From assembly GCA_900546735.1 (NCBI GenBank), contig URDW01000004.1, positions 1-30,609 on the forward strand: 30,609 bases of DNA, given 5' to 3'. How positions within the stretch are numbered: position 1 is the stretch's first letter; each line of letters starts with the position of its first letter. Both the position numbers and the translations under genes were made by a program. The notes below the pieces were generated by a model, which was given only the letters and a program-made list of their open reading frames with translations, was not told the DNA's origin and made no database searches. This DNA comes from an uncultured Oscillospiraceae bacterium (GTDB lineage Bacteria > Bacillota > Clostridia > Oscillospirales > Acutalibacteraceae). This document shows, piece by piece, positions 235 through 18,634 of the stretch.

Positions 235-1422
235 TTATCGTGCGCCTACCCTTGTTTTTTGCCTTGCGGCCCGTTTCCGTTTCTTTTCAGCCTGTTCCTG
301 CTGGTAAGCGGCCTCTAATATTCTGTCCACTTGTTCTGGGCCAAAGGCCCTTTTGACCCGCTCATAGTCAGCGGAGACTTGCCGCATGGCCTTGTTTTCC
401 AACTTGACCTCCTGCAATCGATCAGACAGGCGGATGTTGCTCTCCCTCACCCGGCCATAGTCCCCTTGCAGACGCTCAAATTTCCCCCGCAGCTCCACAT
501 AGGCCAGATACAGGGAGCGCAGCACCTTGACGATTTGGGCCAGCAGGGGCTTTGCCTTTTTCTCTCGGTAGGCCCGGCCTGTTTCCAGCGTTCCCGGCTC
601 CGGCAAAATCTCCTCCGGATTGGCGGAGAAATCCGCTGCCAACCGCTCCATATTTTTCACCGCCGGGGCAAGTTCTTTGAGCCGCCGTTCCTGGCTCTCC
701 ACCTGGTTTTCTTTCTCCGCCTTGACCGTCTCCAGAACGGCGATCTCCTTTGCCCGCTGCTCTTTCTTGTAGTCCAGCACAGACAAGTGCTTGTCGTGGG
801 TGCCTTTGTCCTCCCACTCAATCCCGTGGCGCTCCATGACCAGGGAAAGCTGCTCCTTTTCCGAGCGCACCCACTGGCTCCACTCTGTGTCCCCTCTGGT
901 GCCGCCCTGGAAACCCTGGGCCGCTAACGCCTGTTTCAAAGATACCCTCGTGTCCAGCCCTCGCTTGCTCCCGGTGGTGAATGGTACAAAGTCAATGTGC
1001 AGATGGGGCGTAGCCTCGTCCATGTGGAGGTGGGCAGAGAACACCCGGAGTTGGGGGTTGCGCTCTTGAAAGCCCTTCATGTACTCGTCCAAAACCGCTG
1101 CCGCAAGCTGTCCCTCCTCGCTGTCGGCGCTCATATCATCTCGATTGCCCACTTGCAGGATGATTTCATGGAACGGCTTTTCCTGCTTGCCGGAGCGGAT
1201 CTTCTCATAGTAATCCTCTATCCTTCTGTCGGCCCTGGTTTGTTTAGCGTTGTACCGTTCCAGAGCCTCGTCAAAGAGTTCATGGTACACCGCCTTGATA
1301 TTCTCCTGGCAGTAGGTTATATTCAAGTGGGAGCGTTCCGGGTCAGTGTTCTTGGCGTGGAATTTTCTACTGTTATGGTTCACCGATCCTTGGCCCACCA
1401 TGGCGCTGATTGTCCTTTTCAA
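235..1422 (-). CDS. mob: MobV-family relaxase (Pre/Mob plasmid recombination/mobilization protein)
   Basis: This protein should nick the transfer origin and pilot the DNA strand when a helper element supplies the conjugation pore. Visible support: the N-terminal MobV signature around residues 5-30 (AMVGQGSVNHNSRK) and the metal-binding HxDExxPHxH motif at residues 133-142. The C-terminal half is charged and coiled-coil-like, as is usual for Pre/Mob proteins. The 395-residue length fits the family. The start is a TTG codon at 1422, preceded by GGAGGAGGGATTGAT; no ATG fits the conserved N-terminus, so I prefer TTG. It is the last gene of the leftward operon and is separated from rep by 446 bases of repeat-rich DNA that probably holds its oriT. 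The alternative name Pre (site-specific recombination) describes the same family. Confidence 0.9.
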   Translation of the reverse strand: MKRTISAMVGQGSVNHNSRKFHAKNTDPERSHLNITYCQENIKAVYHELFDEALERYNAKQTRADRRIEDYYEKIRSGKQEKPFHEIILQVGNRDDMSADSEEGQLAAAVLDEYMKGFQERNPQLRVFSAHLHMDEATPHLHIDFVPFTTGSKRGLDTRVSLKQALAAQGFQGGTRGDTEWSQWVRSEKEQLSLVMERHGIEWEDKGTHDKHLSVLDYKKEQRAKEIAVLETVKAEKENQVESQERRLKELAPAVKNMERLAADFSANPEEILPEPGTLETGRAYREKKAKPLLAQIVKVLRSLYLAYVELRGKFERLQGDYGRVRESNIRLSDRLQEVKLENKAMRQVSADYERVKRAFGPEQVDRILEAAYQQEQAEKKRKRAARQKTRVGAR

Positions 1423-1654
1423 ATCAATCCCTCCTCCCTTTTCCGCCGCGCAAGCGGCGAGCCTTTGTTACTTTCTGCGAAAGTAACGCAAAAGCACTTT
1501 TGACAGCCTGACGGCCATCAAAAGCGCATTTGCGCCCTACGGGGTGGTGTGGGGGCTTTGCCCCCGGCAACTGCGGTTGCCTCCCCCAGCAGGGCCGCCC
1601 TTTGAAAAGGGCACCCTGCACCCCGCCTAAACTTTGTCACTCGCCGTTGGGCAG

Positions 1655-1681
1655 GGTGGAAAGGCCAGGGGCCTTTCCACC
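1655..1681. repeat. perfect 12-base stem-loop
   Basis: GGTGGAAAGGCC at 1655-1666 is followed by loop AGG and the exact reverse complement at 1670-1681. There is no T-run, so it is not an ordinary terminator. It lies in the candidate origin region of the mobile element. Confidence 0.6.
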
Positions 1682-1705
1682 GCCCGGCAAGTGTTTTCCG
1701 TGGGC

Positions 1706-1778
1706 CGAAAGTCAAGGGGTACGGGTTGTATTGACTTGCGGCAATCTCCACCCGCAGGTATGCCCCCCTTGACTTTCG
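1706..1778. repeat. 14-base perfect inverted repeat
   Basis: CGAAAGTCAAGGGG at 1706-1719 is repeated as its exact reverse complement at 1765-1778, with 45 bases between. It sits between the relaxase and Rep genes and beside the iterons, which suggests protein binding or a strand-specific fold at an origin. Confidence 0.6.
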
Positions 1779-1788
1779 CCCCCGCTCC

Positions 1789-1873
1789 CCGTGACAGCCG
1801 TGACGACCGTGACGATGTTTTACACACCGCCTCCGCACTCCGAAAAGCTGTCACAGCTGTCACGGTCGTCACG
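1789..1873. repeat. 9-base iterons in two opposed groups
   Basis: Three direct copies of CCGTGACRR stand at 1789-1797, 1798-1806 and 1807-1815. After about 30 bases, three copies of the same unit (with small changes) stand in the opposite orientation at 1846-1873. The last one runs into the rep stop codon. Tandem 9-base units at one face of the helix beside a Rep-type gene look like initiator-binding iterons, so this may be an oriV or an autoregulatory site. Confidence 0.6.
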
Positions 1874-3023
1874 CCTGGGGTTCCTCCAACGTGAGCTTGA
1901 TACTCCGCCCGGCATGGGTTCGGGCGCTTTCATAGTGGATGTGGTACTCATAGGACAGCCGCCACGCCCGGACATTCAGCCGCATAGCCAGGGCATTGGG
2001 TTTCATATCCAGCCCCAGGGCGGCGACAAGTTCCGTGGCCGTCCCTCTCCACTCTGGCCGTTCCGCCGTTACCAGGGCGGCAACAGCCTCCAACACCGGG
2101 TCAGGCGGCTCCTGCCGCAGCTCCGTTTCCCGCCGCTCCAGCTCCCACACAAGCCGTTCCTCGTCCCGCTTGAGGTAGAGGCGCTGGTCTTGCTGATCCC
2201 GCCCAGAAATGTCCAGGGTGGCGGCGTTGTCTGCCCGCCGCTCCTTTTGGAGCAGAAAGGCCCCGTCTGCCGCACCCAATAAGCCGTTGGTGCCGGAGAT
2301 CATATCAAACTTATCATCGGCCTGCTGCTTGCGGGTGTGATGTACAACCAGGAGGCAAACCCCGCTTATATCGGCAAACCGTTTCAGTTTGGTGATTACC
2401 TCATAGTCGTTGGCATAGCTGTACTTCTCTGCCCCGGCCTCCCGGATTTTTTGCAGGGTGTCGATGATAATAAGCCGGGTGTCCGTGTGTTCCCGGACAA
2501 AGCCCTTTAGCTGCTCCTCCAGGCCACCGCCGAGCTGCTTAGCTCCGATGGCAAAGAACAGGTTTCCGGTACTCTCTACTCCAAACATCCGGTACAACCG
2601 CTCCTGTAAGCGACGGTGGTTGTCCTCCAGGGCCAGATAGAGGACTGTCCCCTGGCGCACCTCATACCCCCACAGGGAAAGGCCCATACTCACATGATAG
2701 GCAAGCTGGGCCATGAGAAAGGACTTGCCCACCTTGGGAGCGCCCACAAAGAGATATGTCCCCGCATAGAGCAGACCGTCTACCACAGGAGGTCTGCCGG
2801 GGTACACCTGTTCGTAGAGGTCATTCATAGACACGGTAGGCAGATAGGCCGGGTCATTGACCCGGCTTATCTGCCGCAGGATTTCCTCCAAATCTCTTTC
2901 CGGGGGCTTGTGTTCTGTCACGCCCTCTGCTATACTTTGGTTAGGTTTTTGTGAGAGCGACTGTCCCCCGTCTGCGCCAACAGGCGGATATGGGGCAGTC
3001 GTTTTCTCTTGCAATCTATCCAT
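1869..3023 (-). CDS. RepA-like AAA ATPase (plasmid/element replication protein)
   Basis: This is a RecA/KaiC-fold ATPase of the AAA_25/RepA type, in the same superfamily as hexameric plasmid helicases and replicative ATPases of integrative elements. Walker A is GAPKVGKS at residues 94-101, Walker B is LIIID at 184-188, and a VVHHTRK segment at about 226-232 fits the sensor region. The C-terminal 70 residues look like a small winged-helix DNA-binding part. Start: ATG 3023 with GGAGG eight bases upstream; the preceding gene's stop lies inside this ribosome binding site, so translation is probably coupled. It likely supports replication of the excised circle or primes transfer. The exact enzymatic role (helicase or loader) cannot be told from sequence alone. 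Confidence 0.8.
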   Translation of the reverse strand: MDRLQEKTTAPYPPVGADGGQSLSQKPNQSIAEGVTEHKPPERDLEEILRQISRVNDPAYLPTVSMNDLYEQVYPGRPPVVDGLLYAGTYLFVGAPKVGKSFLMAQLAYHVSMGLSLWGYEVRQGTVLYLALEDNHRRLQERLYRMFGVESTGNLFFAIGAKQLGGGLEEQLKGFVREHTDTRLIIIDTLQKIREAGAEKYSYANDYEVITKLKRFADISGVCLLVVHHTRKQQADDKFDMISGTNGLLGAADGAFLLQKERRADNAATLDISGRDQQDQRLYLKRDEERLVWELERRETELRQEPPDPVLEAVAALVTAERPEWRGTATELVAALGLDMKPNALAMRLNVRAWRLSYEYHIHYESARTHAGRSIKLTLEEPQA

Positions 3024-3026
3024 CTA

Positions 3027-3347
3027 TCAATCCTCCCTCATGCCGTCCATGATGGCGGCGATCAGCCGGATGGTGTCCAGCAACTCCCCATCCACGCCAT
3101 TCCCGGCCTCGATACGCTCCAGTTCTTCCAGAACGGCGGCCAGCTCGTTCCGCAGGGCCTTATACACCCTGGGGTTGCCCTGTACCACCACATCCCGGCA
3201 CAGCAGCCGTCGGGTGATGTAGTCCTGTTTGGTAAGGCCGGAGAGCCGCACAGCGGTTTCAATTTCCCTGTCCTCATCCGGGGACACCCGGAAAGCCACA
3301 GTTTTGTTTCTCCAGCGGTTGTGTCGGTCAAGATTTTTCACTGACAT
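3027..3347 (-). CDS. MobC-like mobilization/ribbon-helix-helix protein
   Basis: The protein has 106 residues. The N-terminal part (KTVAFRVSPDEDREIETAVR, about residues 15-34) has the beta-strand plus helix pattern of ribbon-helix-helix DNA-binding proteins. The phrase LSGLTKQDYITRRLL that follows is typical of MobC-like relaxosome accessory proteins of Firmicutes elements. It probably binds near oriT and helps the relaxase, or acts as a local repressor. It starts three bases after the integrase stop codon (integrase ends at 3351), with GGGGG about eight bases upstream of ATG 3347, and ends four bases before rep. All are one leftward operon. The function is inferred from motif and position. 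Confidence 0.7.
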   Translation of the reverse strand: MSVKNLDRHNRWRNKTVAFRVSPDEDREIETAVRLSGLTKQDYITRRLLCRDVVVQGNPRVYKALRNELAAVLEELERIEAGNGVDGELLDTIRLIAAIMDGMRED

Positions 3348-3350
3348 GAT

Positions 3351-4427
3351 TTAGGCCCCCTTTCGCTCCATGTCCAGTTTGTCCGCCATCTCCGCCTGCC
3401 GGGTGGGGAACAGGTGGGCGTAGCGGTAGGTAATATCAATGCTTTCATGTCCCACCCGGTCAGCGATTGCCAGGGCCGTAAAGCCCATGTCAATGAGCAG
3501 CGAAATGTGGGAGTGCCTCAGGTCGTGTATTCTGATCCGCTTTACCCCGGCCTCTTTCGCACCCCTGTCCATCTCCCGGTGGAGGTAGGATTTTGTCACC
3601 GTGAAAATGCGGTCGGTGGGCTTCACCCCATACAGGCTCTTGATATAGTCTCGCATTTCTTCACAGAGGAAAGCGGGCATTTGAATGACCCGGTTGCTCT
3701 TAGGGGTCTTGGGGTCGGTAATCACATCCTTGCCCTTAATCCGCTGGTAGGACTTGGAGATGGTGACGGTCTGTTTCTCAAAGTCGAAGTCGCCAGGAGT
3801 GAGGGCCAGCAGCTCCCCCTCCCGGACGCCGCACCAGTAGAGCATTTCAAAGGCGTAATAGGAAAGGGGCTTGTCCATCATGGCCTCGGCGAATTTCAGA
3901 TACTCCGCCTTTGTCCAGAACAGCATTTCCCGTCCCTTTGGCTTTCCCATATTGCCCGCCTGGGCAGCGGGATTGACCTTTAGATTGTAGTGCCGTACCG
4001 CATGGTTGAACACGGCGCTCAACTGATTGTGCAGCGTTTTTAAGTACACCGGAGAGTAGGGCTTGCCGTTCTTGTCCCGGTAACCCAGCATTTCATTCTG
4101 CCAGGCGATGACCTCCTTGGAGTGAATGTCGCACATCTTCCGCTTGCCGAAGTACGGCACCAACTTCTTGTAGAGGATATGCTCTTTCGTCCCCCAGGTG
4201 TTTTCCTTGATACGGCCTTTCATGTCCGCCACATAGACAGCCACGAAGTTTTCAAAGGTCATTTCCAGGTCGGCGGTCTGTTGTTGCAGGAATGTCCGCT
4301 CCCACTCCAGAGCCTCCCGCTTGGTGGGAAAGCCCCGTTTCATTTTCTTTACTTTCTTGCCCGTCCAGTCCTCGTAGTAAAAGGACGCATACCATGTGCC
4401 CTTTGCCTTGTCTTTGTATGCCGGCAT
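3351..4427 (-). CDS. int: site-specific tyrosine recombinase (element integrase)
   Basis: This enzyme should integrate and excise the element by strand exchange at att sites. It has an N-terminal arm-binding domain (AYKDKAKGTWYASFYYED, residues 3-20), a SAM-like core-binding domain (about 55-150) and a C-terminal catalytic domain. Catalytic residues seen: Arg202 (GVREGELLAL), His301 and Arg304 (HDLRHSH), His327 (RVGHESI) and the nucleophile Tyr336 (YRYAHL). I place the start at ATG 4427 (358 residues) because GGAGGG lies seven bases before it; an upstream in-frame start at 4463 would overlap the excisionase gene and lacks such a site. It lies just downstream of the xis-like gene, close to the guaA end of the element, as usual for integrases. 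Confidence 0.93.
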   Translation of the reverse strand: MPAYKDKAKGTWYASFYYEDWTGKKVKKMKRGFPTKREALEWERTFLQQQTADLEMTFENFVAVYVADMKGRIKENTWGTKEHILYKKLVPYFGKRKMCDIHSKEVIAWQNEMLGYRDKNGKPYSPVYLKTLHNQLSAVFNHAVRHYNLKVNPAAQAGNMGKPKGREMLFWTKAEYLKFAEAMMDKPLSYYAFEMLYWCGVREGELLALTPGDFDFEKQTVTISKSYQRIKGKDVITDPKTPKSNRVIQMPAFLCEEMRDYIKSLYGVKPTDRIFTVTKSYLHREMDRGAKEAGVKRIRIHDLRHSHISLLIDMGFTALAIADRVGHESIDITYRYAHLFPTRQAEMADKLDMERKGA

Positions 4428-4440
4428 TGTGGTTCCCTCC

Positions 4441-4629
4441 TTATTGTCTGTCCCGCAGCCCATAGAATTTTTCCTCGAAGTAGCGCCTGCTTACCCGTCC
4501 GGGAATGGTGAGAAAGCCTTTTTTCTTCAGCTCCTCGTTCATCTCCCGCACCAGCTTGTAGGCGTAGGGCTTGGAAATGCCCAGCTCCCTGGCGACCTCC
4601 TCTGCTCTCACAAACAGCTCCTTTTCCAT
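4441..4629 (-). CDS. xis: excisionase-like small HTH protein
   Basis: The protein has 62 residues and a helix-turn-helix of the MerR/AlpA-like excisionase type: VRAEEVARELGISKPYAYKLV covers residues about 7-27 (helix, turn with GIS, recognition helix), followed by a possible wing (GFLTIPGRVSRRYF). It probably bends att DNA to favour excision. Start: ATG 4629 with AAGGAGG seven bases upstream; a GTG nine bases earlier overlaps that site and is unlikely. It is the first gene of the leftward operon and its promoter lies in the intergenic region to the right. Function is inferred from fold, size and position beside the integrase. Confidence 0.75.
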   Translation of the reverse strand: MEKELFVRAEEVARELGISKPYAYKLVREMNEELKKKGFLTIPGRVSRRYFEEKFYGLRDRQ

Positions 4630-7093: not shown

Positions 7094-8362
7094 TTACCGG
7101 ATCATGATCTCTTCGCGGGCCGGGCCGTTCGAGACCATGTTGATTTTGTAGCCGATCTCGTTTTCAATAAAGGCCACATAGTCTTTTGCCGCCTGGGGCA
7201 GGTCGGCATAATTGCGGATGCCGCGGATGTCGCCGAAGCCTTTGAGCGTTTTCAGCACGGGCTTGGCTTTTTTGAGCTGCGAGGTGACCGGGAATTCCTT
7301 GGTGATTTCGCCGTCGATGTCGTAGGCCACGCAGACCTTGATCTCGTCCAGGTACGACAGGCAGTCGAGCGCAGTCAGCACCACCGTTGTAGCGCCCTGG
7401 CAGTCGAGCCCGTATTTTGTGGCCACGCAGTCGAACCAGCCGACGCGGCGCGGACGGCCGGTCGTGGCGCCGAATTCGCCCTTGTCACCGCCGTGGATGC
7501 GAAGCTGGTCGGCCTCTTCGCCGAAAATTTCAGATACAAATTCGCCGGCGCCCACAGCGCTGGAATACGCTTTTGTAACGACCACAACGTCCTCGATCGC
7601 GTGCGGCGGAATGCCGGCGCCCACAGCGCCGTAGCCGGCCAGGGTGGAGGAGGAGGTCACCATCGGGTAGATGCCGAAATCCGGGTCTTTGAGCGAGCCG
7701 AGCTGGCCCTCAAGCAGAATGTTTTTGCCCTCTTTCAGCGCGTTTCTGAGGAAAGCGGCCGTGTCGCACACATAGGGGCTGATCTCTTCGCGGTAGCGCA
7801 CGCAGTCGCGGTAAAGCTTCTCGGGGTCAAGCAGCGGCTTGTGGTAAACGTGCTCGATCATCAGGTTTTTCACGGTGCAGATGTTCGCAAGCTTTTCTTT
7901 TAACAGTGCGTCGTCAAACAATTCGTTTACCTGGATGCCGATCTTGGCATATTTGTCGCTGAAAAACGGTGCAATGCCGCTTTTGGTGGAGCCAAAGGCG
8001 TTTTTGCCCAGGCGCTCTTCTTCATATTCGTCCAGCAGAATGTGGTAAGGCATCAGCACCTGCGCGCGGTCGGACACAAGCATTTTCGGGGTCAGGCCGG
8101 CCTCTTTCAGGCCGTTTAACTCTTTGATGAATTTGTCGATGTCGAGCGCCACGCCGTTGCCGATGACGTTTGTGGTGTGCTTGTAGCACACGCCGGACGG
8201 CATCAGGTGCAGGGCGAAGCGGCCGTGCTCGTTGATGATGGTGTGGCCGGCGTTTGCACCGCCCTGAAAGCGCACAACAATGTCGCTTTCGCTGGCAAAC
8301 ATGTCGGTGATCTTGCCTTTGCCCTCGTCGCCCCAGTTGGCGCCTACGATTGCTCTTACCAT
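7094..8362 (-). CDS. purA: adenylosuccinate synthetase
   Basis: It joins IMP and aspartate with GTP to give adenylosuccinate, the first committed step to AMP. The GTP-binding loop GDEGKGK is at residues 11-17, and the family signatures VRFQGGANAGHT and GATTGRPRRVGW are intact. The 422 residues match the family. Its partner guaA makes GMP from the same IMP branch point, so the operon governs the two arms together. The transcript starts at a perfect consensus promoter (8450-8478) and carries a hairpin with a T-run before the coding region, which may act as an attenuator. A ribosome binding site, GGAGCGTGTTTTCACC, is weaker in appearance than that of guaA. Confidence 0.97.
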   Translation of the reverse strand: MVRAIVGANWGDEGKGKITDMFASESDIVVRFQGGANAGHTIINEHGRFALHLMPSGVCYKHTTNVIGNGVALDIDKFIKELNGLKEAGLTPKMLVSDRAQVLMPYHILLDEYEEERLGKNAFGSTKSGIAPFFSDKYAKIGIQVNELFDDALLKEKLANICTVKNLMIEHVYHKPLLDPEKLYRDCVRYREEISPYVCDTAAFLRNALKEGKNILLEGQLGSLKDPDFGIYPMVTSSSTLAGYGAVGAGIPPHAIEDVVVVTKAYSSAVGAGEFVSEIFGEEADQLRIHGGDKGEFGATTGRPRRVGWFDCVATKYGLDCQGATTVVLTALDCLSYLDEIKVCVAYDIDGEITKEFPVTSQLKKAKPVLKTLKGFGDIRGIRNYADLPQAAKDYVAFIENEIGYKINMVSNGPAREEIMIR

Positions 8363-11713: not shown

Positions 11714-12667
11714 TTATTCTGTATAAACCGCCGCCGTAACGGCCAGCGGCAGTTTTTGCCCGTTCATCGTGCCCCAAAGCTCGGCACGGTACCAGCTGTG
11801 TTTCTCCAGCTTCAGGTGTATATGGCGTTCGGAAACGGCCGTTTCGCACACACATCGGCCGCCGCGCGTGATGATTTTAATGGATCTGTATTCTATGTTC
11901 GCGTTTTCGCGGTTTTTCTCGCGCGAATGCAGGTCGGTAAAAAAGCTGAAAATGGCGTTGCCGCCCTGTAGCGTGTCGCCCAGGGTATAGGTGCTGCCTT
12001 TTTGGTGGATGCGAAACAGCAGCTTTGCACCGCTCGAGACCACGCTGCGGCCGGCGCGGATCGCCGCAAGCGCGTGTTCAGGCGTGGCCGCGCCGTCAAT
12101 ACCGAGATAGGTGCAGCCGTAAAGGTTTTCCGGCGGCTCGGGCCTGTGCCAGTCGCGCCCGTAGGTCGGCGTGATCTTTATGCCGCGGTCCAAAAGGTTG
12201 GTAAACAGGGCAAGGCCCTGCTCGTTTTCGGGGTTGTCCGGCGTAAATGCGTCGTGCCAGATCTCCAGGTAGTCAAACCGACTCCAGTCCTGCACCCGAA
12301 ATTCCCACCGGCCGCCGGTGCAAATCGGCGACCCAAGCTGAAACGGGTGCGCACAGCCCACAACGGCGCCGGCCGCTTTCAGTTCGGCCACTTTTTCGTC
12401 AATGTTATTGGGCTTGGCGCTGCGCCAGTCCACAAAGTGCCCGGCGTTCAGCACCAGCATGTGGCCGTAGTAAGTCGTCCATTCCATGCCCCCGACCACG
12501 GGCAAAAGGCTTTGGTCTGCCTCGGGCACGCCGCTTGCAGTGTTGTGGTCGGTCAGGGCGATCAAAGCCAGGTGGTCGTCCAGCGCGGCCTGCTGTAATT
12601 CCCGCACGGTAAAGGCGCCGTCTGAATGGCGGGTGTGGCAGTGCAGCTCGCACGGCAGGTAACTCAT
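11714..12667 (-). CDS. PHP-domain metallohydrolase (CehA/McbA-like)
   Basis: The protein has 317 residues. PHP metal-binding motifs are HCHTRHSDG (His9, His11, Asp16), LTDHNT (Asp40, His41), Glu62, His69 and CAHPFQ (His107), with DWH at 172-174. These suit a di- or trinuclear metal phosphoesterase or hydrolase. CehA-like PHP proteins commonly carry an N-terminal beta-sandwich; here the upstream small gene overlaps this one by four bases (ATGA) and could be the separate counterpart. The substrate is unknown. The C-terminal 80 residues are beta-rich. It is followed 41 bases later by the GH36 alpha-galactosidase gene, so a sugar-phosphate or glycan role is possible but not shown. Confidence 0.85.
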   Translation of the reverse strand: MSYLPCELHCHTRHSDGAFTVRELQQAALDDHLALIALTDHNTASGVPEADQSLLPVVGGMEWTTYYGHMLVLNAGHFVDWRSAKPNNIDEKVAELKAAGAVVGCAHPFQLGSPICTGGRWEFRVQDWSRFDYLEIWHDAFTPDNPENEQGLALFTNLLDRGIKITPTYGRDWHRPEPPENLYGCTYLGIDGAATPEHALAAIRAGRSVVSSGAKLLFRIHQKGSTYTLGDTLQGGNAIFSFFTDLHSREKNRENANIEYRSIKIITRGGRCVCETAVSERHIHLKLEKHSWYRAELWGTMNGQKLPLAVTAAVYTE

Positions 12668-13122
12668 GCGCGCACCTCCGTCTCTGTTTTCGTACTGATT
12701 TTTACGGTGTAGTCAATGCGGCAAAGCGCGCAGTGCACGTTCAGGGTCAGGTACCATGTGCCCGGCTGTGTCGGCGCGTTTGTAAAGCCGTAAGAGGACT
12801 GTGCGGCGCCAACGGTATGTATCTGGCGGGGATCCTGCCGGTGCGCCGCGCCGCGGTAGCCGCCCGGGTCGTCCAGCGAAAGGGTGACCAGGTTTTTCAG
12901 CGGCAAATACTGCTTGTATTCGTCGTAACACACGGCGCCGTTGTATTTCTTGAGCGCCGTTTCACAAATCTGCTTTTCAAGCTCCGGGTCAGTCAGTGTT
13001 TTCGGCGAATAGGCAAACTCGATCTGCAGCGCCTGCGTGCCTGCCGGTACGTCAAAGGCAAAGCGCACGTTTGTCTTGTCGTCGTCCCTTGTGAGGATAC
13101 CGCTTTTGTCCAGTAAAACCAT
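12664..13122 (-). CDS. conserved-type protein of unknown function, upstream of the PHP gene
   Basis: I do not recognise a named family. The protein has 152 residues, is soluble, and shows beta-strand-rich alternation (FAFDVPAGTQALQIEFAY near the N-terminus; PGTWYLTLNVHCA near the C-terminus), which suggests a carbohydrate-binding-like or C2-like beta-sandwich. The phrase TWYLTLNV is typical of the last strands of such domains. It overlaps the PHP gene by four bases (ATGA), so the two are translationally coupled. I take ATG 13122 as start, with GGCGGG nine bases upstream; the GTG at 13140 overlaps that site. A strong promoter precedes it at 13155-13183. It probably acts with, or as a partner domain of, the PHP protein. 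Confidence 0.65.
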   Translation of the reverse strand: MVLLDKSGILTRDDDKTNVRFAFDVPAGTQALQIEFAYSPKTLTDPELEKQICETALKKYNGAVCYDEYKQYLPLKNLVTLSLDDPGGYRGAAHRQDPRQIHTVGAAQSSYGFTNAPTQPGTWYLTLNVHCALCRIDYTVKISTKTETEVRA

Positions 13123-13154
13123 TTTTATCCCGCCCACCACTTTGTGCTGTGAAG

Positions 13155-13183
13155 ATTATAGCATGATGCTGCAATTTTTTCAA
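13155..13183 (-). promoter_or_regulatory. promoter of the unknown-PHP-GH36 operon
   Basis: TTGAAA (13183-13178) and TATAAT (13160-13155) on the minus strand with a 17-base spacer, placed 33 bases before ATG 13122. Confidence 0.8.
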
Positions 13184-13201
13184 TCCGGCAGCTGAATTTT
13201 G

Positions 13202-13230
13202 TTGATTTTGTGCTTTTCGGACTTTATAAT
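13202..13230 (+). promoter_or_regulatory. promoter of the PI-PLC-like gene
   Basis: TTGATT (13202-13207) and TATAAT (13225-13230) with a 17-base spacer. The ATG at 13254 follows a GAGGGG ribosome binding site. Confidence 0.75.
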
Positions 13231-13253
13231 AAGATAAGAAAAGAGGGGAAAAG

Positions 13254-14138
13254 ATGATAAAATATGACCTGAACAGCTGGATGCGCCTGCTGCCGGACGA
13301 TTTACCGCTTTATGAACTGTGCCTTTGCGGAACGCACGACTGCGTCACAAAAAATATAGCATTTTCACATTTTCTCTGCTGTCAGTCCATGTCGATCGCT
13401 TCGCAGCTTTCTCTTGGCGTGCGTGCGCTCGACATCCGCGTGCGCCCGGTCGGAAGGCGGCTTTTGATGATACACGGTGCTGTCTGCGCCCGCACCGACA
13501 GCGGTGAAAAGATGGACATGGCCGATGTGCTTGCCCAGTGTTATGCGTTTTTGCGTAAAAACCCCGGCGAATGTATCGTGTTCCAGTTTAAGGATGATGC
13601 CGGGCGCGACTATGAGCAGGCGTTTGCCAATCTTTACTACACCTATATTTCCGATCATGCCGAAATGTGGTTCCTCGAAAACCGTGTGCCGCGCCTGGGT
13701 GAAGCGCGCGGCAAGATCGTGCTGATCCGCCGCTGCAAAAAAGATGCGTCCGACCAAAACCTGACCGATGCAAACAGCGGGCTTGATTTTTCCCGTTGGG
13801 TGGAGCAGGACACGGCTGAACCGCAGCCCCTGCCGCTCGAGTGCGGAAACGGCGTGCGCTTTCTGGTGCAGGACCGCTATAAGTATAAGCCCCAGCCGCG
13901 CTGGCACGACTGCATCCGCCCGTTTCTGGATGCGGCCCGGCCGTTTGGGGGCACATATGTCATCAACTACCTGTCTACAGCCGGCGGGCTGAAAGGGCCG
14001 CGCAAAAACGCTGAAATCATCAATCACTATTTTCTGCAATATCCGCTGGACCCTGAAAAGTACTATGGCACGGTCTATGTGGACTTTCCGAGCGAGGCGC
14101 TGGTGCGCAAGCTGATCGACCGGAATTTTTGTTTTTGA
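13254..14138 (+). CDS. phosphatidylinositol-specific phospholipase C-like protein (PI-PLC X domain)
   Basis: The protein has 294 residues and the PLC-like TIM-barrel fold. Catalytic-type histidines stand in CGTHDC (His28) and LMIHGAV (His74), the pair used for general base and acid in bacterial PI-PLCs; SLGVRALDIRV (53-63) and ECIVFQFKDD are further family segments. It would cleave a phosphodiester of a phosphatidylinositol-like lipid to a cyclic or monophosphate product. No signal peptide is visible, which is unusual because characterised bacterial PI-PLCs are secreted; a cytoplasmic substrate such as a glycerophosphoinositol or another phosphodiester is therefore possible. It has its own promoter and a terminator 28 bases after the stop. 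Confidence 0.85.
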   Translation: MIKYDLNSWMRLLPDDLPLYELCLCGTHDCVTKNIAFSHFLCCQSMSIASQLSLGVRALDIRVRPVGRRLLMIHGAVCARTDSGEKMDMADVLAQCYAFLRKNPGECIVFQFKDDAGRDYEQAFANLYYTYISDHAEMWFLENRVPRLGEARGKIVLIRRCKKDASDQNLTDANSGLDFSRWVEQDTAEPQPLPLECGNGVRFLVQDRYKYKPQPRWHDCIRPFLDAARPFGGTYVINYLSTAGGLKGPRKNAEIINHYFLQYPLDPEKYYGTVYVDFPSEALVRKLIDRNFCF

Positions 14139-14165
14139 TGTGTGCGAAAAACAGATAAACGCAGA

Positions 14166-14198
14166 ATCACCCGGCATTGTGACCCGGGTGATTTTTTT
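14166..14198 (+). terminator. terminator of the PI-PLC-like gene
   Basis: ATCACCCGG (14166-14174) and CCGGGTGAT (14184-14192), loop of 9, followed by a run of seven T. Confidence 0.88.
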
Positions 14199-14212
14199 AT
14201 ATGGCGCGCATG

Positions 14213-14241
14213 TTGACAAGCGCTGTTTTATGTGCTGACAT
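14213..14241 (+). promoter_or_regulatory. promoter of the small XRE regulator
   Basis: TTGACA (14213-14218) and TGACAT (14236-14241) with a 17-base spacer and a TGC just before the -10, an extended -10 context. The -10 itself is poor, so activity may depend on the TG or on a regulator. The tandem palindromes overlap its downstream edge. Confidence 0.55.
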
Positions 14242-14270
14242 GAAGCTGACTTCACATGAAGCGCACTTCA
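14241..14270. promoter_or_regulatory. two tandem palindromic operators
   Basis: Two 14-base dyads, TGAAG-N4-CTTCA, stand at 14241-14254 and 14257-14270, 16 bases centre to centre, between the promoter and the ribosome binding site of the XRE gene. They are likely sites for autorepression by the encoded HTH protein. Confidence 0.65.
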
Positions 14271-14290
14271 TGCTGCGCAAAAGGAGAAAA

Positions 14291-14503
14291 ATGAAAACAA
14301 AGTTGAAAGCATTTCGCACGGCGGCCGGGCTGACCCAGCAGCAGCTGGCCGAACGGGTGCACGTTTCGTCCAGAACGATCATTTCCATAGAAAAAGAGCA
14401 GTACAGTCCATCGCTCATGCTGGCCTACCGATTGGCACAGGTCTTCGGCACAACGGTGGAGGATTTGTGCTGCCTGCAGGAAAATAATGCTCATGTGCCA
14501 TAA
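14291..14503 (+). CDS. small XRE-family HTH regulator
   Basis: The protein has 70 residues and consists almost wholly of one HTH_3 domain: KLKAFRTAAGLTQQQLAERV (residues 4-23) with the recognition helix SSRTIISIEKEQYSPSL following, then AYRLAQVFGTTVEDLCCL. Such single-domain regulators, like those near 65-70 residues in many Firmicutes, control a few neighbours or themselves. ATG 14291 is chosen because AGGAG lies six bases upstream; the longer frame from 14201 runs through the promoter and operators. Two tandem palindromes upstream suggest autoregulation. The target besides itself is unknown; the flavin island begins directly downstream, but composition differs, so a functional link is not implied. 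Confidence 0.87.
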   Translation: MKTKLKAFRTAAGLTQQQLAERVHVSSRTIISIEKEQYSPSLMLAYRLAQVFGTTVEDLCCLQENNAHVP

Positions 14504-14602
14504 AGTAACACACACAAGAATTTGATAGACAGCCACCCATTATTCCGTTATCTTCAGAACACATATACACTTCCGAAATGTTTCCGAAATCTTCGAGAAC
14601 TA

Positions 14603-14631
14603 TTGCAGATGTTCGATATAAGAGGTATTCT
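14603..14631 (+). promoter_or_regulatory. promoter of the ribU transcript
   Basis: TTGCAG (14603-14608) and TATTCT (14626-14631) with a 17-base spacer. The expected start near 14638 is about 16 bases before the aptamer, which fits a riboswitch-led transcript. Confidence 0.55.
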
Positions 14632-14653
14632 TGATATGAACAACTGAATAGAA

Positions 14654-14766
14654 GTGTCTTCGGGGCAGGGTGAAATTCCCGATTGGCGGTAAAGTCCGCG
14701 AGCGTGAAAACGCATGATTTGGTGCAATTCCAAAACCAACAGTATAGTCTGGATAAAAGAAGATAA
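14654..14766 (+). ncRNA. FMN riboswitch (RFN element)
   Basis: The conserved RFN core is present: CTTCGGGGCAGGGTGAAATT, then CCCGATTGGCGGT, AAGTCCGCGAGC and later GATTTGGTGCAATTCC and AACCAACAGTATAGTCTGGAT. These are the joining regions and P2-P6 segments of FMN aptamers. FMN binding should favour the terminator at 14816-14853 and so shut off ribU when flavin is plentiful. The boundaries are approximate because the P1 helix was not resolved base by base. Confidence 0.93.
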
Positions 14767-14815
14767 TATAGGATTTCAAAACAGCCACATCATGTTTTGC
14801 GTTCTATAAATTTTT

Positions 14816-14853
14816 AGCACCCAAAAGGCATTTCCTTTTAGGTGCTATTTTTT
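14816..14853 (+). terminator. riboswitch-controlled terminator
   Basis: A 13-base stem with one mismatch (14816-14828 with 14834-14846, loop CATTT) is followed by a T-run at 14848-14853. It lies between the FMN aptamer and the ribU ribosome binding site, as expected for transcriptional control. Confidence 0.88.
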
Positions 14854-14873
14854 ACGCAATGGAGGAAATTCAT

Positions 14874-15521
14874 ATGAACAGCAAAACTAAAAAAATCACA
14901 ACAATCGGTATGCTATGTGCAATTACATATGTAATCATGGCCGTTGGAAGAATACCTGTCATATTGTTTTTGAAATATGACCCGTCGGACGTTATAGTTA
15001 CTTTAGGTGGATTGATTTGGGGGCCGATGACTTCTTGCATTGTATCGGTTATTGTAGCAACTATTGAAATGATAACAGTTAGTGACACAGGAATTTTAGG
15101 TTGCATTATGAATATTGTTCAAACGGTTTCCTTTGCGTGTACTGCTTCTGCGATTTATAAGAAAAAGCGGACTATGTCTGGCGCAGTAATTGGTCTTTTC
15201 GTTGGGTGTGTAACTACGATTTCAGTTATGATGTTGTGGAATTACCTGATTACACCGCTTTATATGGGATACCCAAGAGAAGCGGTTGTAGAATTACTGC
15301 TCCCGGCATTTCTTCCCTTCAATTTGTTAAAAAGTGTGTTAAATTCTGCGATAACATTTTTGCTATATAAACCTGTAATTACAGCCTTAAGGAAAAGCGG
15401 TTATGTTGCCGTGTCGGAGAAAGAAAATAGTAAACAAAAACGAAATGGGTTAATCTTGCTGGCTGTTATGATTATTATTACTTGTATCCTAATCATTTTA
15501 TCAATGAATGGAATTATATGA
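14874..15521 (+). CDS. ribU: riboflavin ECF transporter substrate-binding component
   Basis: RibU is the membrane S component that binds riboflavin and works with a shared energising module (EcfT and two EcfA ATPases) encoded elsewhere. The 215 residues include about six hydrophobic segments, starting with TTIGMLCAITYVIMAVGRIP and the typical KYDPSDV pocket sequence after the first helix. Control by an FMN riboswitch confirms riboflavin as the likely substrate. I place the start at ATG 14874 after GGAGG; the ATG at 14859 overlaps that site. Codons are strikingly AT-rich compared with both flanks, a sign of transfer. The stop codon overlaps a possible start of the next gene (ATGA at 15518-15521). 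Confidence 0.93.
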   Translation: MNSKTKKITTIGMLCAITYVIMAVGRIPVILFLKYDPSDVIVTLGGLIWGPMTSCIVSVIVATIEMITVSDTGILGCIMNIVQTVSFACTASAIYKKKRTMSGAVIGLFVGCVTTISVMMLWNYLITPLYMGYPREAVVELLLPAFLPFNLLKSVLNSAITFLLYKPVITALRKSGYVAVSEKENSKQKRNGLILLAVMIIITCILIILSMNGII

Positions 15522-15529
15522 GGATAGCT

Positions 15530-16225
15530 ATGAAAGAAAAGGAAAATATGGAACCTATTTATACGATAACGGGAACTGTTGTGCATGGCCGAGGAATCGG
15601 AAAGCACGTTGGGACACCTACCGCAAATATAGAAGTAGACGAACACGCGACTTTACCAGAAACAGGTGTATATGTGGCAAAAATCCTATTGGATAGTCAG
15701 ACATATTATGGTGTTACCCATGTTGGAATGCGACCTACACTTGATAACGATAAAGCCATTTCAATCGAAACTCATATCTTTGATTTTGATAACGATATAT
15801 ACGGGCGTACTATAACTATCTATCTATATAAAAAAATAAGAGAAGTCAGGAAATTTAATGAATTATCCTTGCTGATAGAACAAGTTACAACTGATAGATT
15901 ATCAGCCAGAAAATTTTGGGGATTAAAGCAAACAAATTGTGCCTTATATGTTGATGTCAAAAGACATTGTGTAATGATAGGTGAGCAGGAAGTGTATTTA
16001 TCAGCAAATGAATTTGAGGTCTTTTACATGCTATACTTATCGCCTCAAATTACATTTACAAAGGAACAAATCTATGAAAAGATATGGCATGAACCAACCA
16101 ATAATCATTTACACGCAGTAGAAAACACAGTTTTTCAAATACGCAAAAGGTTGAAACCCCATTGTAAAGGACACGAATATATAAAAACAGTAGTTGGCTA
16201 TGGTTATAAATTTAATTCTGATTAG
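15530..16225 (+). CDS. riboflavin kinase fused to an OmpR-type winged-helix domain
   Basis: The N-terminal half (about residues 8-127) is a riboflavin kinase domain. GTVVHGRGIGKHVGTPTAN (15-33) contains the PTAN Mg-ATP motif. GVYVAKILL, VGMRPTL and the catalytic-type Glu80 in ISIETHIFDFDNDIYG follow in family order. There is no FAD synthetase domain, unlike bifunctional RibF. The C-terminal part (about 138-229) reads as an OmpR/PhoB effector domain: LSANEFEVFYMLY, TKEQIYEKIW, VENTVFQIRKRLK and the final YIKTVVGYGYKF. It should trap imported riboflavin as FMN and may also bind nucleic acid. In size and layout it resembles Bacillus RibR (flavokinase plus regulatory domain acting on FMN riboswitches), but homology of the second domain is not shown. 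ATG 15530 follows GAGGAT; 15518 (ATGA overlap) and 15548 are alternatives. The gene is AT-rich, and its stop is the point where composition changes. Confidence 0.85.
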   Translation: MKEKENMEPIYTITGTVVHGRGIGKHVGTPTANIEVDEHATLPETGVYVAKILLDSQTYYGVTHVGMRPTLDNDKAISIETHIFDFDNDIYGRTITIYLYKKIREVRKFNELSLLIEQVTTDRLSARKFWGLKQTNCALYVDVKRHCVMIGEQEVYLSANEFEVFYMLYLSPQITFTKEQIYEKIWHEPTNNHLHAVENTVFQIRKRLKPHCKGHEYIKTVVGYGYKFNSD

Positions 16226-16375
16226 CAAAGCCAGCCGAGCCAGTCAACGGTCAAGATGAACGGCGCATACCGCGCCGCCGTTGACAGCCCCGCCCGCCTT
16301 TGCTGGCAGGCAATCAAGGGGGCGACAGCAAGGAGTGCTGCCGCCCCGCACTATTATCAGAGAGGGGGAATTTCC
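16226..16375 (+). other. GC-rich structured leader of mobile-element type
   Basis: Directly after the kinase stop codon the composition switches to GC-rich. The stretch can form a bulged stem (GTCAACGG 16243-16250 with CCGTTGAC 16278-16285, and GGCGC 16262-16266 with GCGCC 16272-16276) and a second stem (16319-16330 with 16336-16347). From memory it resembles the leader that precedes sigma-like genes on clostridial conjugative elements; a search is needed to confirm. It ends in GAGGGGG just before the sigma-like reading frame. Confidence 0.5.
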
Positions 16376-16801
16376 ATAACCGAAGATGAAGCCTATAAAG
16401 TGCATATCCAGTACACATTCAATGCCTTTTGCAAGATTGTTATTCGTCACGCCGCCATAGATGTAATTTTGAAGCTGCGCCGGAGGTGGGAACGGGAATT
16501 TTCCCTTGACTATCTGATGAATGAGAAGTTTGTCCAGCTTGCCGAGCCGGAGCAGCCTGAAGAATATCTTTTTACCGCCTGCGGCCAGACTGCCGTTCTG
16601 TACCATGCGGAACTTGCCGCCGCCCTTGCCCTCTTGCCTGAGCAGGCACAGGAAGAAATTTTCCGGTACTACTTCCTGCGCCAGCCGCAGCGCGTGATCG
16701 GCGTACATATCGGCCGGACACGCAGCACAGCGGAGCGGCATATCCAGCTTGCCTTGAAGCGGCGCCGGCGCATTGATTGGCGTAATTCTATCCATTTTTA
16801 G
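16256..16801 (+). CDS. sigma-70-like regulator of mobile-element type (start codon in doubt)
   Basis: From about 16376 the frame encodes a sigma-70-family-like protein of a type seen on clostridial integrative conjugative elements: YTFNAFCKIVIRHAAID and FSLDYLMNEKF, then a region 4-like C-terminus with LLPEQAQEEIFRYYFL and a recognition helix (VIGVHIGRTRSTAERHIQLALKRR). The only in-frame ATG (16256) lies inside the structured leader. An ideal GAGGGGG is placed seven bases before ATA at 16376-16378, where family members would begin with Met. The start may therefore have mutated from ATG, or a non-standard start is used, and the real protein would be about 141 residues. No excisionase or integrase gene follows, so this is probably a leftover backbone piece of the element that brought ribU. 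Confidence 0.65.
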   Translation: MNGAYRAAVDSPARLCWQAIKGATARSAAAPHYYQRGGISITEDEAYKVHIQYTFNAFCKIVIRHAAIDVILKLRRRWEREFSLDYLMNEKFVQLAEPEQPEEYLFTACGQTAVLYHAELAAALALLPEQAQEEIFRYYFLRQPQRVIGVHIGRTRSTAERHIQLALKRRRRIDWRNSIHF

Positions 16802-16852
16802 CATAATGATCATTCTTCAATAATTTGCACTTTTGGATAGCTCTTATAAAAT

Positions 16853-16889
16853 AAAACACGCCGCGCAGAATTTCTGCGCGGCGTGTTTT
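16853..16889. terminator. bidirectional terminator
   Basis: A 16-base perfect stem (16853-16868 with 16874-16889) has four A on the left arm and a long T-run on the right. It separates the sigma-like gene (+) from the GDPD gene (-). Confidence 0.92.
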
Positions 16890-16938
16890 TTGTGATTTTA
16901 AGCGGCACGGGATTTGTGCCTGTTGGTTTGTTGATTTT

Positions 16939-17856
16939 TCAGTACGTCAGGCAGTTGGTCGTAATGGTGTGCACGCCCCAGGAGATCAGCTGCTGCATCA
17001 CTTCGGGGTCGTCGATCGTCCATGCGCCCAGCTGCAGCCCGGCGTCGGCGCATTTCTGCACCATTTCCTGCGTGTTTTCCTCGCGGTTGCCGTCAAAGTC
17101 GATGCCGGCGTTCGGGCCAAGCGCCTTTGCCTCTTCGATCGCCTCGTCATCAATGACTTTTACCAGGTACCAAAGCGGGCAGGTGTCGGTCAGCTCGGCC
17201 ATTTTCTGCAGGTTCTCAATGTGGAAGGAGATGAAATAGGTCTGCTCTTCCATATCGTATTTCTGCACCGATCCCATGATCTCGTCGTAGTGCTCGGTGT
17301 TGTTCTTGCCCTTTAGCTCAATAATGGGCTTCATGCCGTATTCGCGGCAGATCTCCAGGTACTCGTCGAGCGTCGTGATCTTCAGGTTCGGGTAATTTTC
17401 AATGTTGCTGCCGTTGTCCACCGTGTATTCCAGCAGTTCGTCATAGGTCTTTTTTTCAATGAACGCCGTTTTGTCCATCATGCGGTATGTAATGGGGTCG
17501 TGTGTAATGACCCAAACGCCGTCCTCGGTGCGGTACACGTCGCACTCTGCACCCCAGTAACCGGCTTTGCCGGCCTCTTCAAACGCCGGGGCGGTGTTTT
17601 CGGGCGCCATGGCGCTGAACCCGCGGTGCGCGATCATCTGGATCTCGTCGGTCGATTCACCGGTGGCGATGATCTCGTATTCCTTCGGTGTGCAGTAGAT
17701 GTGCAGCCAAATCAGCCCCCCGCAGACGGCCAGAACGAGCAGCCCGGCAATGACCGATGCAGCGATCACGGCGATCTTTTGCTTTTTGGTCAGCTTCTTT
17801 TTGGGCGCGTCCGGCGTTTTTTGTACATTTGGTTTTACGGTTTTGGTTTCAGACAT
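16939..17856 (-). CDS. membrane-anchored glycerophosphodiester phosphodiesterase
   Basis: The protein has 305 residues. A lysine-rich cytoplasmic N-terminus is followed by one membrane helix (about residues 28-50) and an extracytoplasmic GDPD TIM-barrel. Catalytic motifs are IAHRGF (His77, Arg78), PENT (Glu87), ECDVYRTEDG (Glu104, Asp106) and THDP (His119). It should cleave glycerophosphodiesters to glycerol-3-phosphate and an alcohol, releasing phosphorus and glycerol from lipid or teichoic-acid debris outside the membrane. Its start at 17856 lies eight bases inside the end of the nitroreductase gene, with GGAGGG upstream, so the two are coupled. The terminator at 16853-16889 ends the operon. 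Confidence 0.93.
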   Translation of the reverse strand: MSETKTVKPNVQKTPDAPKKKLTKKQKIAVIAASVIAGLLVLAVCGGLIWLHIYCTPKEYEIIATGESTDEIQMIAHRGFSAMAPENTAPAFEEAGKAGYWGAECDVYRTEDGVWVITHDPITYRMMDKTAFIEKKTYDELLEYTVDNGSNIENYPNLKITTLDEYLEICREYGMKPIIELKGKNNTEHYDEIMGSVQKYDMEEQTYFISFHIENLQKMAELTDTCPLWYLVKVIDDEAIEEAKALGPNAGIDFDGNREENTQEMVQKCADAGLQLGAWTIDDPEVMQQLISWGVHTITTNCLTY

Positions 17857-18634
17857 CGTTTACTCCCTCCTTTGCAGCGCTGTCTGAAGGTTCGGGCATG
17901 CCTGCCGGCTGCCCGGTTTCAAAATTGCCGGCAGAGGTCCATCTGCCGTTTATGCCTTTTTCGCGCATGCCCGTTTCAAAGTGGAACTTGGCAATGCCAA
18001 AGTCGATGCTCTGGTCCGAATACGGTTCGGGCACGCCGGCGTGCAGCACGCCGTTTTCAAACTGGAACAGCACCGGCTGCCGGTTGACGGAGGACGGTGC
18101 GTTTTCCACCTGCTGCATGGCGAAAACGTATTCGTCGGGCAGCTTTTCGTCGCATACGGTAAACATTTTCTGGTACGGTTTGGAGGTCTTGTGCGTGACC
18201 CGGCGGATCATTTTTTCTTTTGCCGAAAGTTCTTTTCGCACATAGCCGAATGCAATGGCGGCGTACAGGCGCACTTTTTTCGGCAGCTTGCAAAGCTGAA
18301 AGATCTTTTCCTCTTTAAAAGTGCTGGAAAGCCAGCAGGTGCCGAGGCCGCTGTACACGGCCTCCAGCACCATTTGTTCGCCAAAGTAGCCGCAGTCCTC
18401 GCGCGCCTTTTGCGTGTCCGGGCCGCACACGGCCACAAGCGCAAAGCTGCCGCTGAGCATGGAGGACAGGCCCTTGCCCGTTTCAAACAGCACAAAGTTG
18501 AGCCCGGCCGTTTCGTTGATCCAGTCTACATACTGCTTCAGCACGTCAAGCACCTCGGGGGCGGGCGCTTTGTTCAAAAACGTGCGTCTGGAACGGCGCA
18601 TCTGCATGGCTTCAATATATTCGTGGTTCGTCAT
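17849..18634 (-). CDS. nitroreductase-like protein (putative TM1586-type)
   Basis: The protein has 261 residues and the FMN-dependent nitroreductase fold. The family opening MQMRRSRRTFLNKAPAPEVLDVL (residues 10-32) includes the Arg-Arg-Ser FMN phosphate contacts, and GYFGEQMVLEAVYSGLGTCWL (about 101-121) is the usual core helix. The C-terminal repeat-like second half (PSSVNRQPVLFQFENG) points to the TM1586-type subfamily with two half-domains. The substrate is unknown; such proteins reduce nitro or quinone groups or act as flavin-dependent oxidoreductases. It has its own promoter at 18675-18703 overlapping the asnB stop codon, and its tail overlaps the GDPD start. Confidence 0.85.
   Translation of the reverse strand: MTNHEYIEAMQMRRSRRTFLNKAPAPEVLDVLKQYVDWINETAGLNFVLFETGKGLSSMLSGSFALVAVCGPDTQKAREDCGYFGEQMVLEAVYSGLGTCWLSSTFKEEKIFQLCKLPKKVRLYAAIAFGYVRKELSAKEKMIRRVTHKTSKPYQKMFTVCDEKLPDEYVFAMQQVENAPSSVNRQPVLFQFENGVLHAGVPEPYSDQSIDFGIAKFHFETGMREKGINGRWTSAGNFETGQPAGMPEPSDSAAKEGVNDV

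Follow-up and report, generated by a model that had tools for sequence, protein, structure and literature searches.

A flavokinase-winged-helix fusion as a predicted local regulator of its own riboflavin-import operon

What role can a riboflavin kinase play when it is joined to a DNA-binding domain of the type known from response regulators and is encoded directly behind an FMN riboswitch and a riboflavin-transporter gene? This question is raised by a gene in a stretch of 30,609 nucleotides from an uncultured Oscillospiraceae bacterium (GenBank assembly GCA_900546735.1, contig URDW01000004.1), the whole of which is called the window below. The answer that we consider quite likely is that the protein is a trigger enzyme, in which a riboflavin kinase serves as the local transcription factor of its own riboflavin-import operon. 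Since a matching site stands before this operon in nearly all of the examined relatives with an intact fusion, the enzyme probably senses vitamin B2 and controls its own gene. Both the DNA binding and the ligand are predicted from sequence, and it is in this sense that we infer a flavin-linked regulatory role.

The fusion protein, its family and its cassette

The following features of the cassette and of the fusion gene are discussed.

14571..14588, + strand: candidate operator, direct repeat TTCCGAA-ATGT-TTCCGAA with an 11-bp period (conservation across loci)
14603..14608, + strand: inferred -35 element TTGCAG (footprinting; the second repeat starts 21 bp before its TTG)
14626..14631, + strand: inferred -10 element TATTCT after a 17-bp spacer (aligned TATnnT column across loci)
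14652..14768, + strand: FMN riboswitch aptamer, RF00050 (cmscan 109.9 bits, E 5.3e-25)
14815..14847, + strand: terminator-like hairpin with a T run after it (RNA folding energy -16.4 kcal/mol, z -5.57)
14874..15521, + strand: ribU-like ECF transporter S component (PF12822, E 8.2e-18)
15530..16225, + strand: flavokinase-winged-helix fusion gene, 231 aa
15560..15916, + strand: flavokinase domain, residues 11-129 (PF01687; solved homologues)
15617-15628 and 15767-15769, + strand: PTAN motif and catalytic Glu80, within the flavokinase domain
15986..16213, + strand: OmpR/PhoB-type winged-helix domain, residues 153-228 (PF00486; fold match)
16112..16162, + strand: recognition helix, residues 195-211, signature HAVENTxFQIRK (helix in the structure model)

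The hairpin is probably the expression platform of the FMN riboswitch; a simple terminator scan made no report of it, and a consensus promoter scanner likewise returned neither the -35 nor the -10 element. The ribU ORF was listed from 14859, with 14874 as its likely start, and the N-termini of relatives read MNSKTK.

An earlier note on this DNA had described a complete flavokinase domain with PTAN and Glu80, a full Trans_reg_C-like domain, no FAD-synthetase part and a position behind an FMN riboswitch and ribU, and all of this was borne out. The kinase half matches PF01687 with E 8e-39 (133.1 bits, curated cut-off 19.6), and its catalytic set is intact (P30, T31, A32, N33 and E80). The C-terminal half matches PF00486 with E 2e-16 (60.3 bits, cut-off 26.2) over positions 2-77 of the 77 in the profile; its fold matches the PhoB-pho box complex (1gxp) and the GlnR-DNA complex (8hml), and the structure model includes the recognition helix and the strands of the C-terminal hairpin. 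In the Pfam scan of the 231-aa protein only Flavokinase and Trans_reg_C lie above cut-off, hence with no FMN adenylyltransferase domain, no receiver domain and no archaeal kinase family, and NCBIfam models of the bifunctional enzyme match the kinase part only, below cut-off. Residues H195-T200 and F202-R205 of the recognition helix are invariant in 31 aligned members, and this helix is among the best-conserved stretches of the fusion; for the window's nearer relatives, those with a computable dS, dN is well below dS in both halves. From its sequence the window protein is expected to have both activities, as kinase and as regulator.

The domain order, which the note had suggested searching for elsewhere, is not a one-off: a search of 5.8 billion proteins returned 349 homologues, and at least 119 of the 120 listed have both domains, under source names, where given, of 'riboflavin kinase', 'winged helix-turn-helix domain-containing protein' and 'hypothetical protein'. 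In a set of variants of 400-402 aa (P0033-P0040, P0043-P0056) about 190 residues replace the end of the winged helix, the wing hairpin; P0035, which represents 36 contigs and is the sole variant of this length scanned, has no Pfam match in the replacement. Proteins with the winged helix joined to a receiver domain or straight to RibU (P0190, P0196, P0211, P0189, P0201) were set aside as apparent assembly chimeras or deletions. A kinase-domain tree, built on few columns and rooted at the midpoint, sets 36 fusions apart by a branch with support 99/73, slightly below the strict mark, and groups them with two kinase-only proteins at 100/98, separately from 39 RibF-type rows.

The distribution of the fusion across genomes is rare and patchy. 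In the family to which G149 belongs (the Candidatus Limivivens genome with locus L032) it was found in 14 of 397 genomes, 12 intact and 2 kinase-only, and in that of G150 (the Pseudoflavonifractor genome with locus L033) in 4 of 350, with the seed counted in both. Counts of 0/395 for the order of G001 and 0/396 for its class carry little weight, because G001, which is probably not kin of the window, has 28% of the window's sampled words and no match to 12664-18000. Genomes G149-G152, searched in detail, each have a second kinase match too, in a frame as long as a RibF (303-315 aa). G150 also encodes four proteins of 140-151 residues (L062, L070, L074, L078) that consist of an OmpR-type winged helix and a short N-terminal part.

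The GC content of the cassette is 30-40%, compared with 44-62% in its surroundings, and positions 14486-15744 are 97% identical to a Candidatus Enterenecus contig (L035:4957-6215), which ends there, with no match between the two upstream of 14486. The low-GC segment 14486-16225 is by all appearances a recent horizontal transfer, in which repeat, riboswitch, ribU and kinase came as one unit. This unit evidently moves alone: some distant pairs of loci are homologous only from the repeat to the fusion, and between L096 and L113 the homology runs from 1 base before the repeat to the end of the fusion.

A Mob_Pre relaxase, an AAA_25 protein, a NikA-like mobilisation protein and a tyrosine integrase are encoded in series at 235-4463 of the window, with a guaA-like ORF (named by eye) nearby, and this region looks like an integrated mobilisable element. 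A PI-PLC-X-domain protein (24.9 bits, cut-off 23.1) is encoded 5' of the cassette at 13254-14138, and an ORF like sigma-70 region 4, slightly below the Pfam cut-off, lies immediately 3' of the fusion at 16256-16801. In L101 and L113 an HxlR-like regulator and a nitroreductase-like gene (named by eye) adjoin the cassette upstream of the repeat; nitroreductases are flavoproteins. In L102 an azaaromatic (yjdF) riboswitch is present on the minus strand (7839-7959), immediately 3' of the fusion gene.

Among viral contigs, 59 pattern matches to the fusion alignment were obtained, none of them confirmed, and the site-plus-promoter pattern gave 0 matches. A phage collection yielded 9 matching records, all unannotated, 8 of them within or overlapping the riboswitch aptamer and 1 over the winged helix. 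The last of these, the unverified faecal phage scaffold MT835792.1 (L150:2977-3216), carries a winged helix of the fusion subfamily, HAVENTIFQIRKK, at 56% identity; the 6.2 kb examined contain neither a kinase or ribU match nor the exact repeat, which counts against the regulatory reading. A phage origin was dropped.

The direct repeat and its tie to the winged helix

Besides the window, 17 of 21 related loci (L096-L106, L109, L110, L112, L113, L040 and L035) have the exact repeat TTCCGAA-N4-TTCCGAA. The start of the second repeat is separated from the TTG of the -35 element by 21 bp in 18 of 18 site-bearing sequences, and the distance from the repeat end to the -35 is 14 bp in every one; a TATnnT-like -10 follows about 17 bp beyond the TTG in most loci, with a spacer of 16 in L097 and a weak -10 in L100. 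Across 13 non-redundant loci, the 14 bases of both 7-mers are 100% conserved, against a majority identity of 0.41 over the 40 bp that precede the repeat and of 0.54 over the 14 bp that follow it.

The strongest control for the operator is the whole-genome site check. When 20 genomes were scanned for exact sites, exactly one was found in each of 16, always at the fusion operon, and zero in the other four: G151, whose fusion is broken, the kinase-only G578 and G875, and G946, whose fusion is intact but the most diverged. Counted by protein, 17 of the genomes have a winged-helix fusion, one of them truncated by a contig end; 16 have the single exact site and the most diverged has a variant repeat. 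In this last case (L111 in G946) the intact fusion, at 33% identity, has an altered recognition helix, HQVENVVSQLRKK, and the altered repeat, CTCCGTTTTTCCTCCGGT, was read by eye post hoc at the same distance from TTG. At L034 in G151, where ribU is truncated and the fusion is stopped by a stop codon, there is no site and the locus is uninformative. Of 240 genomes of the G149 family, 26 contain the 18-bp pattern; these comprise all 8 of the intact-fusion genomes and 18 of the remaining 232, compared with a reversed-pattern background of 13/240, and a TTG at +32 accompanies 0 of the 18 background sites.

Loci L107 and L108 consist of riboswitch, ribU and a kinase that stops at about residue 130, with neither winged helix nor repeat. 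As these two are sister to each other, the association between repeat and winged helix represents few independent events.

These observations bear on the targets that the earlier note had proposed for a flavin-sensing regulator binding nucleic acid. Its idea of a flavin-linked regulator stands, as an inference from conservation; its proposed targets, riboswitch RNA (considered below) and the promoter of host rib genes, find no support. A host rib-gene regulon was rejected, as the exact-match scan gave no further sites beyond that of the own operon in each of the 16 genomes, and seven other FMN-riboswitch loci in four of the searched genomes (L042-L045, L047-L049) are without it. Moreover, lumazine synthase was found in only 2 of the 20 genomes, so that by this marker most of them are without de novo riboflavin synthesis, although some of the 18 genomes without it may be incomplete.

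Loci without an intact riboswitch and kinases with altered catalytic residues

The FMN riboswitch precedes the fusion in the window and in 15 of 21 related loci, which would agree with a mode of action like that of RibR of B. subtilis, described as a monofunctional flavokinase that takes part in the regulation of riboswitch-controlled rib genes (PMC12542839). On such a reading the C-terminal half would bind the riboswitch RNA and the protein would override the riboswitch. We hold this to be extremely improbable, since 5 of 18 site-bearing loci without an intact riboswitch retain both the fusion and the repeat, since the kinases without a winged helix, which have no repeat, keep the riboswitch, and since the C-terminal half, whose fold is a DNA-binding one, goes together with a DNA repeat that precedes the inferred transcription start. 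Binding of riboswitch RNA, as put forward in the earlier note, is thus not supported. In the five loci, promoter and repeat remain, the leaders of L097, L100 and L112 have no riboswitch and those of L098 and L099 have remnants, loss having been called by the gathering threshold together with a reading of the leaders. RibR, which was set against the fusion by description only, is described as binding RNA and as acting on the RFN element, whereas the winged helix of the fusion is of a DNA-binding type and is tied to a promoter repeat.

Catalytic residues have also changed. In 119 aligned sequences of length 215-285, a set enriched by a search seeded with the decayed L110 protein, T31, N33 or E80 is altered in 23; 8 of these (P0028, P0030, P0070, P0126, P0130, P0132, P0140, P0176) are apparently fragmentary or chimeric and were put aside, and 15, several of them near-copies, are credible. 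Among the replacements are D or G for N, A or S for T, and D or G for E. HAVENT is retained in 13 of the 15, the others being P0155, with HPVENT, and P0123, the L111 protein, with an altered motif. T31, N33 and E80 have as counterparts T208, N210 and E268 of the FAD synthetase of C. ammoniagenes, whose replacement by Ala or Asp blocks FMN production, with traces of very slow activity in E268D, and no Gly or Ser replacements are among the mutants listed in that source (PMC2573891). The L110 protein, one of the 15, is 34% identical to that of the window over the kinase and 59% over the winged helix; it has PAAG for PTAN, and its locus retains the riboswitch, the exact site and the recognition helix. 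As judged from these sequences, riboswitch and catalysis look dispensable, while the DNA-binding half does not.

These data also weigh on another explanation, by which the fusion would be an accessory riboflavin-trapping kinase only, with a winged helix that is vestigial or structural and a repeat that serves another host regulator. All catalytic residues are indeed present in the window copy, and OmpR-type winged helices are abundant in the genomes searched. This explanation is nevertheless very improbable: few parts of the protein are as well conserved as the recognition helix, loci without the winged helix also have no repeat, the exact form of the repeat is found nowhere else in the 16 genomes, and L110 retains site and helix despite its decayed kinase half.

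Predicted mechanism and relation to known regulators

In the trigger-enzyme model, two winged helices would bind head-to-tail to TTCCGAA-N4-TTCCGAA, two helical turns upstream of the -35. Tandem binding to direct-repeat DNA is described for PhoB effector domains (PMC3348028), and the 11-bp repeat fits two domains on one helix face. The flavokinase domain would act as ligand sensor, in that bound riboflavin, alone or together with ATP, or bound FMN and ADP would alter DNA binding or the contact with RNA polymerase. As the kinase module is described to change conformation upon ligand binding (PMC5428420), it would be a natural sensor. The FMN riboswitch further 3' would be a second, independent brake in most copies, and catalytically active copies would also trap imported riboflavin as FMN.

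As to the direction of control, we lean towards activation, not repression, on the position of the site and the weak -35. The -35 fits TTGACA at 3-5 of 6 positions, 9 of 13 loci having C, against the consensus, as its fourth base, and a site wholly upstream of such an element suggests class-I-like activation of a mostly weak promoter. The same protein on the same site could instead be a flavin-dependent repressor, whose flavin-bound form lowers transcription of the operon, as the riboswitch already does. In favour of this, 3 of the 13 non-redundant promoters (L101, L102 and L099) match the consensus at 11/12 positions and would need no activator, being equal in this to that of L108, which has no winged helix and has a perfect TTGACA as its -35. 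Repression is still the unlikely direction, although it deserves serious consideration: RNA polymerase would not be directly blocked by a protein on a repeat that ends 14 bp upstream of the -35, and the C at position 4 is at odds with it.

BirA and NadR are enzymes of vitamin or cofactor metabolism that also act as transcription factors; their enzyme and DNA-binding domains are unrelated to those of the fusion. In place of the receiver domain of PhoB/OmpR response regulators the fusion has a riboflavin kinase, and its repeat lies wholly upstream of the -35, whereas PhoB sites overlap the -35 (PMC3348028), a difference that counts against the model. With RibF the fusion has a homologous kinase module in common, but RibF has an adenylyltransferase module that the fusion is without, and the two are separate in the kinase tree. 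Archaeal RbkR, described as bifunctional, both gene regulator and enzyme (PMC8305020), is likewise a single protein with a DNA-binding half and a riboflavin-kinase half. It combines an N-terminal HTH with an archaeal CTP-dependent kinase, whereas the fusion has a PF01687 kinase, a C-terminal OmpR-type half and a bacterial host; RbkR is taken as the nearest functional analogue, with the fusion convergent and not homologous. A preprint on riboflavin in Lachnospiraceae describes second ribU paralogues and riboswitch-linked ribU, and the terms 'winged', 'transcriptional regulator' and 'DNA-binding' are missing from its main text (PMC12934955). Among the listed titles and abstract openings from the open-licence PMC literature, no description of a bacterial flavokinase-winged-helix regulator was found; PMC7221443, PMC7772410 and PMC4739770 are listed there as containing both of the terms sought.

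What is new from the sequence comparisons is the likely DNA target of the fusion. We know of no earlier flavin regulator in bacteria that binds DNA and is based on the common flavokinase, and if the proposed role is true, the fusion would be the first, with a compact predicted target of a single site. On a wider scale, it seems to us somewhat better than an even guess that a lineage of bacterial riboflavin kinases has turned into flavin-sensing transcription factors able to control ribU alone, in place of the FMN riboswitch, with catalysis lost repeatedly once sensing sufficed, so that the idea of RbkR would have been invented independently a second time with unrelated folds. The relatives display kinase alone, kinase with winged helix, presence and absence of the riboswitch, and changed active sites with the DNA-binding half kept, a range of states in which the step from enzyme to sensor, and that from RNA switch to protein switch, can be tested directly. 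The finding would thereby bear on the control of vitamin B2 uptake in bacteria that depend on its import.
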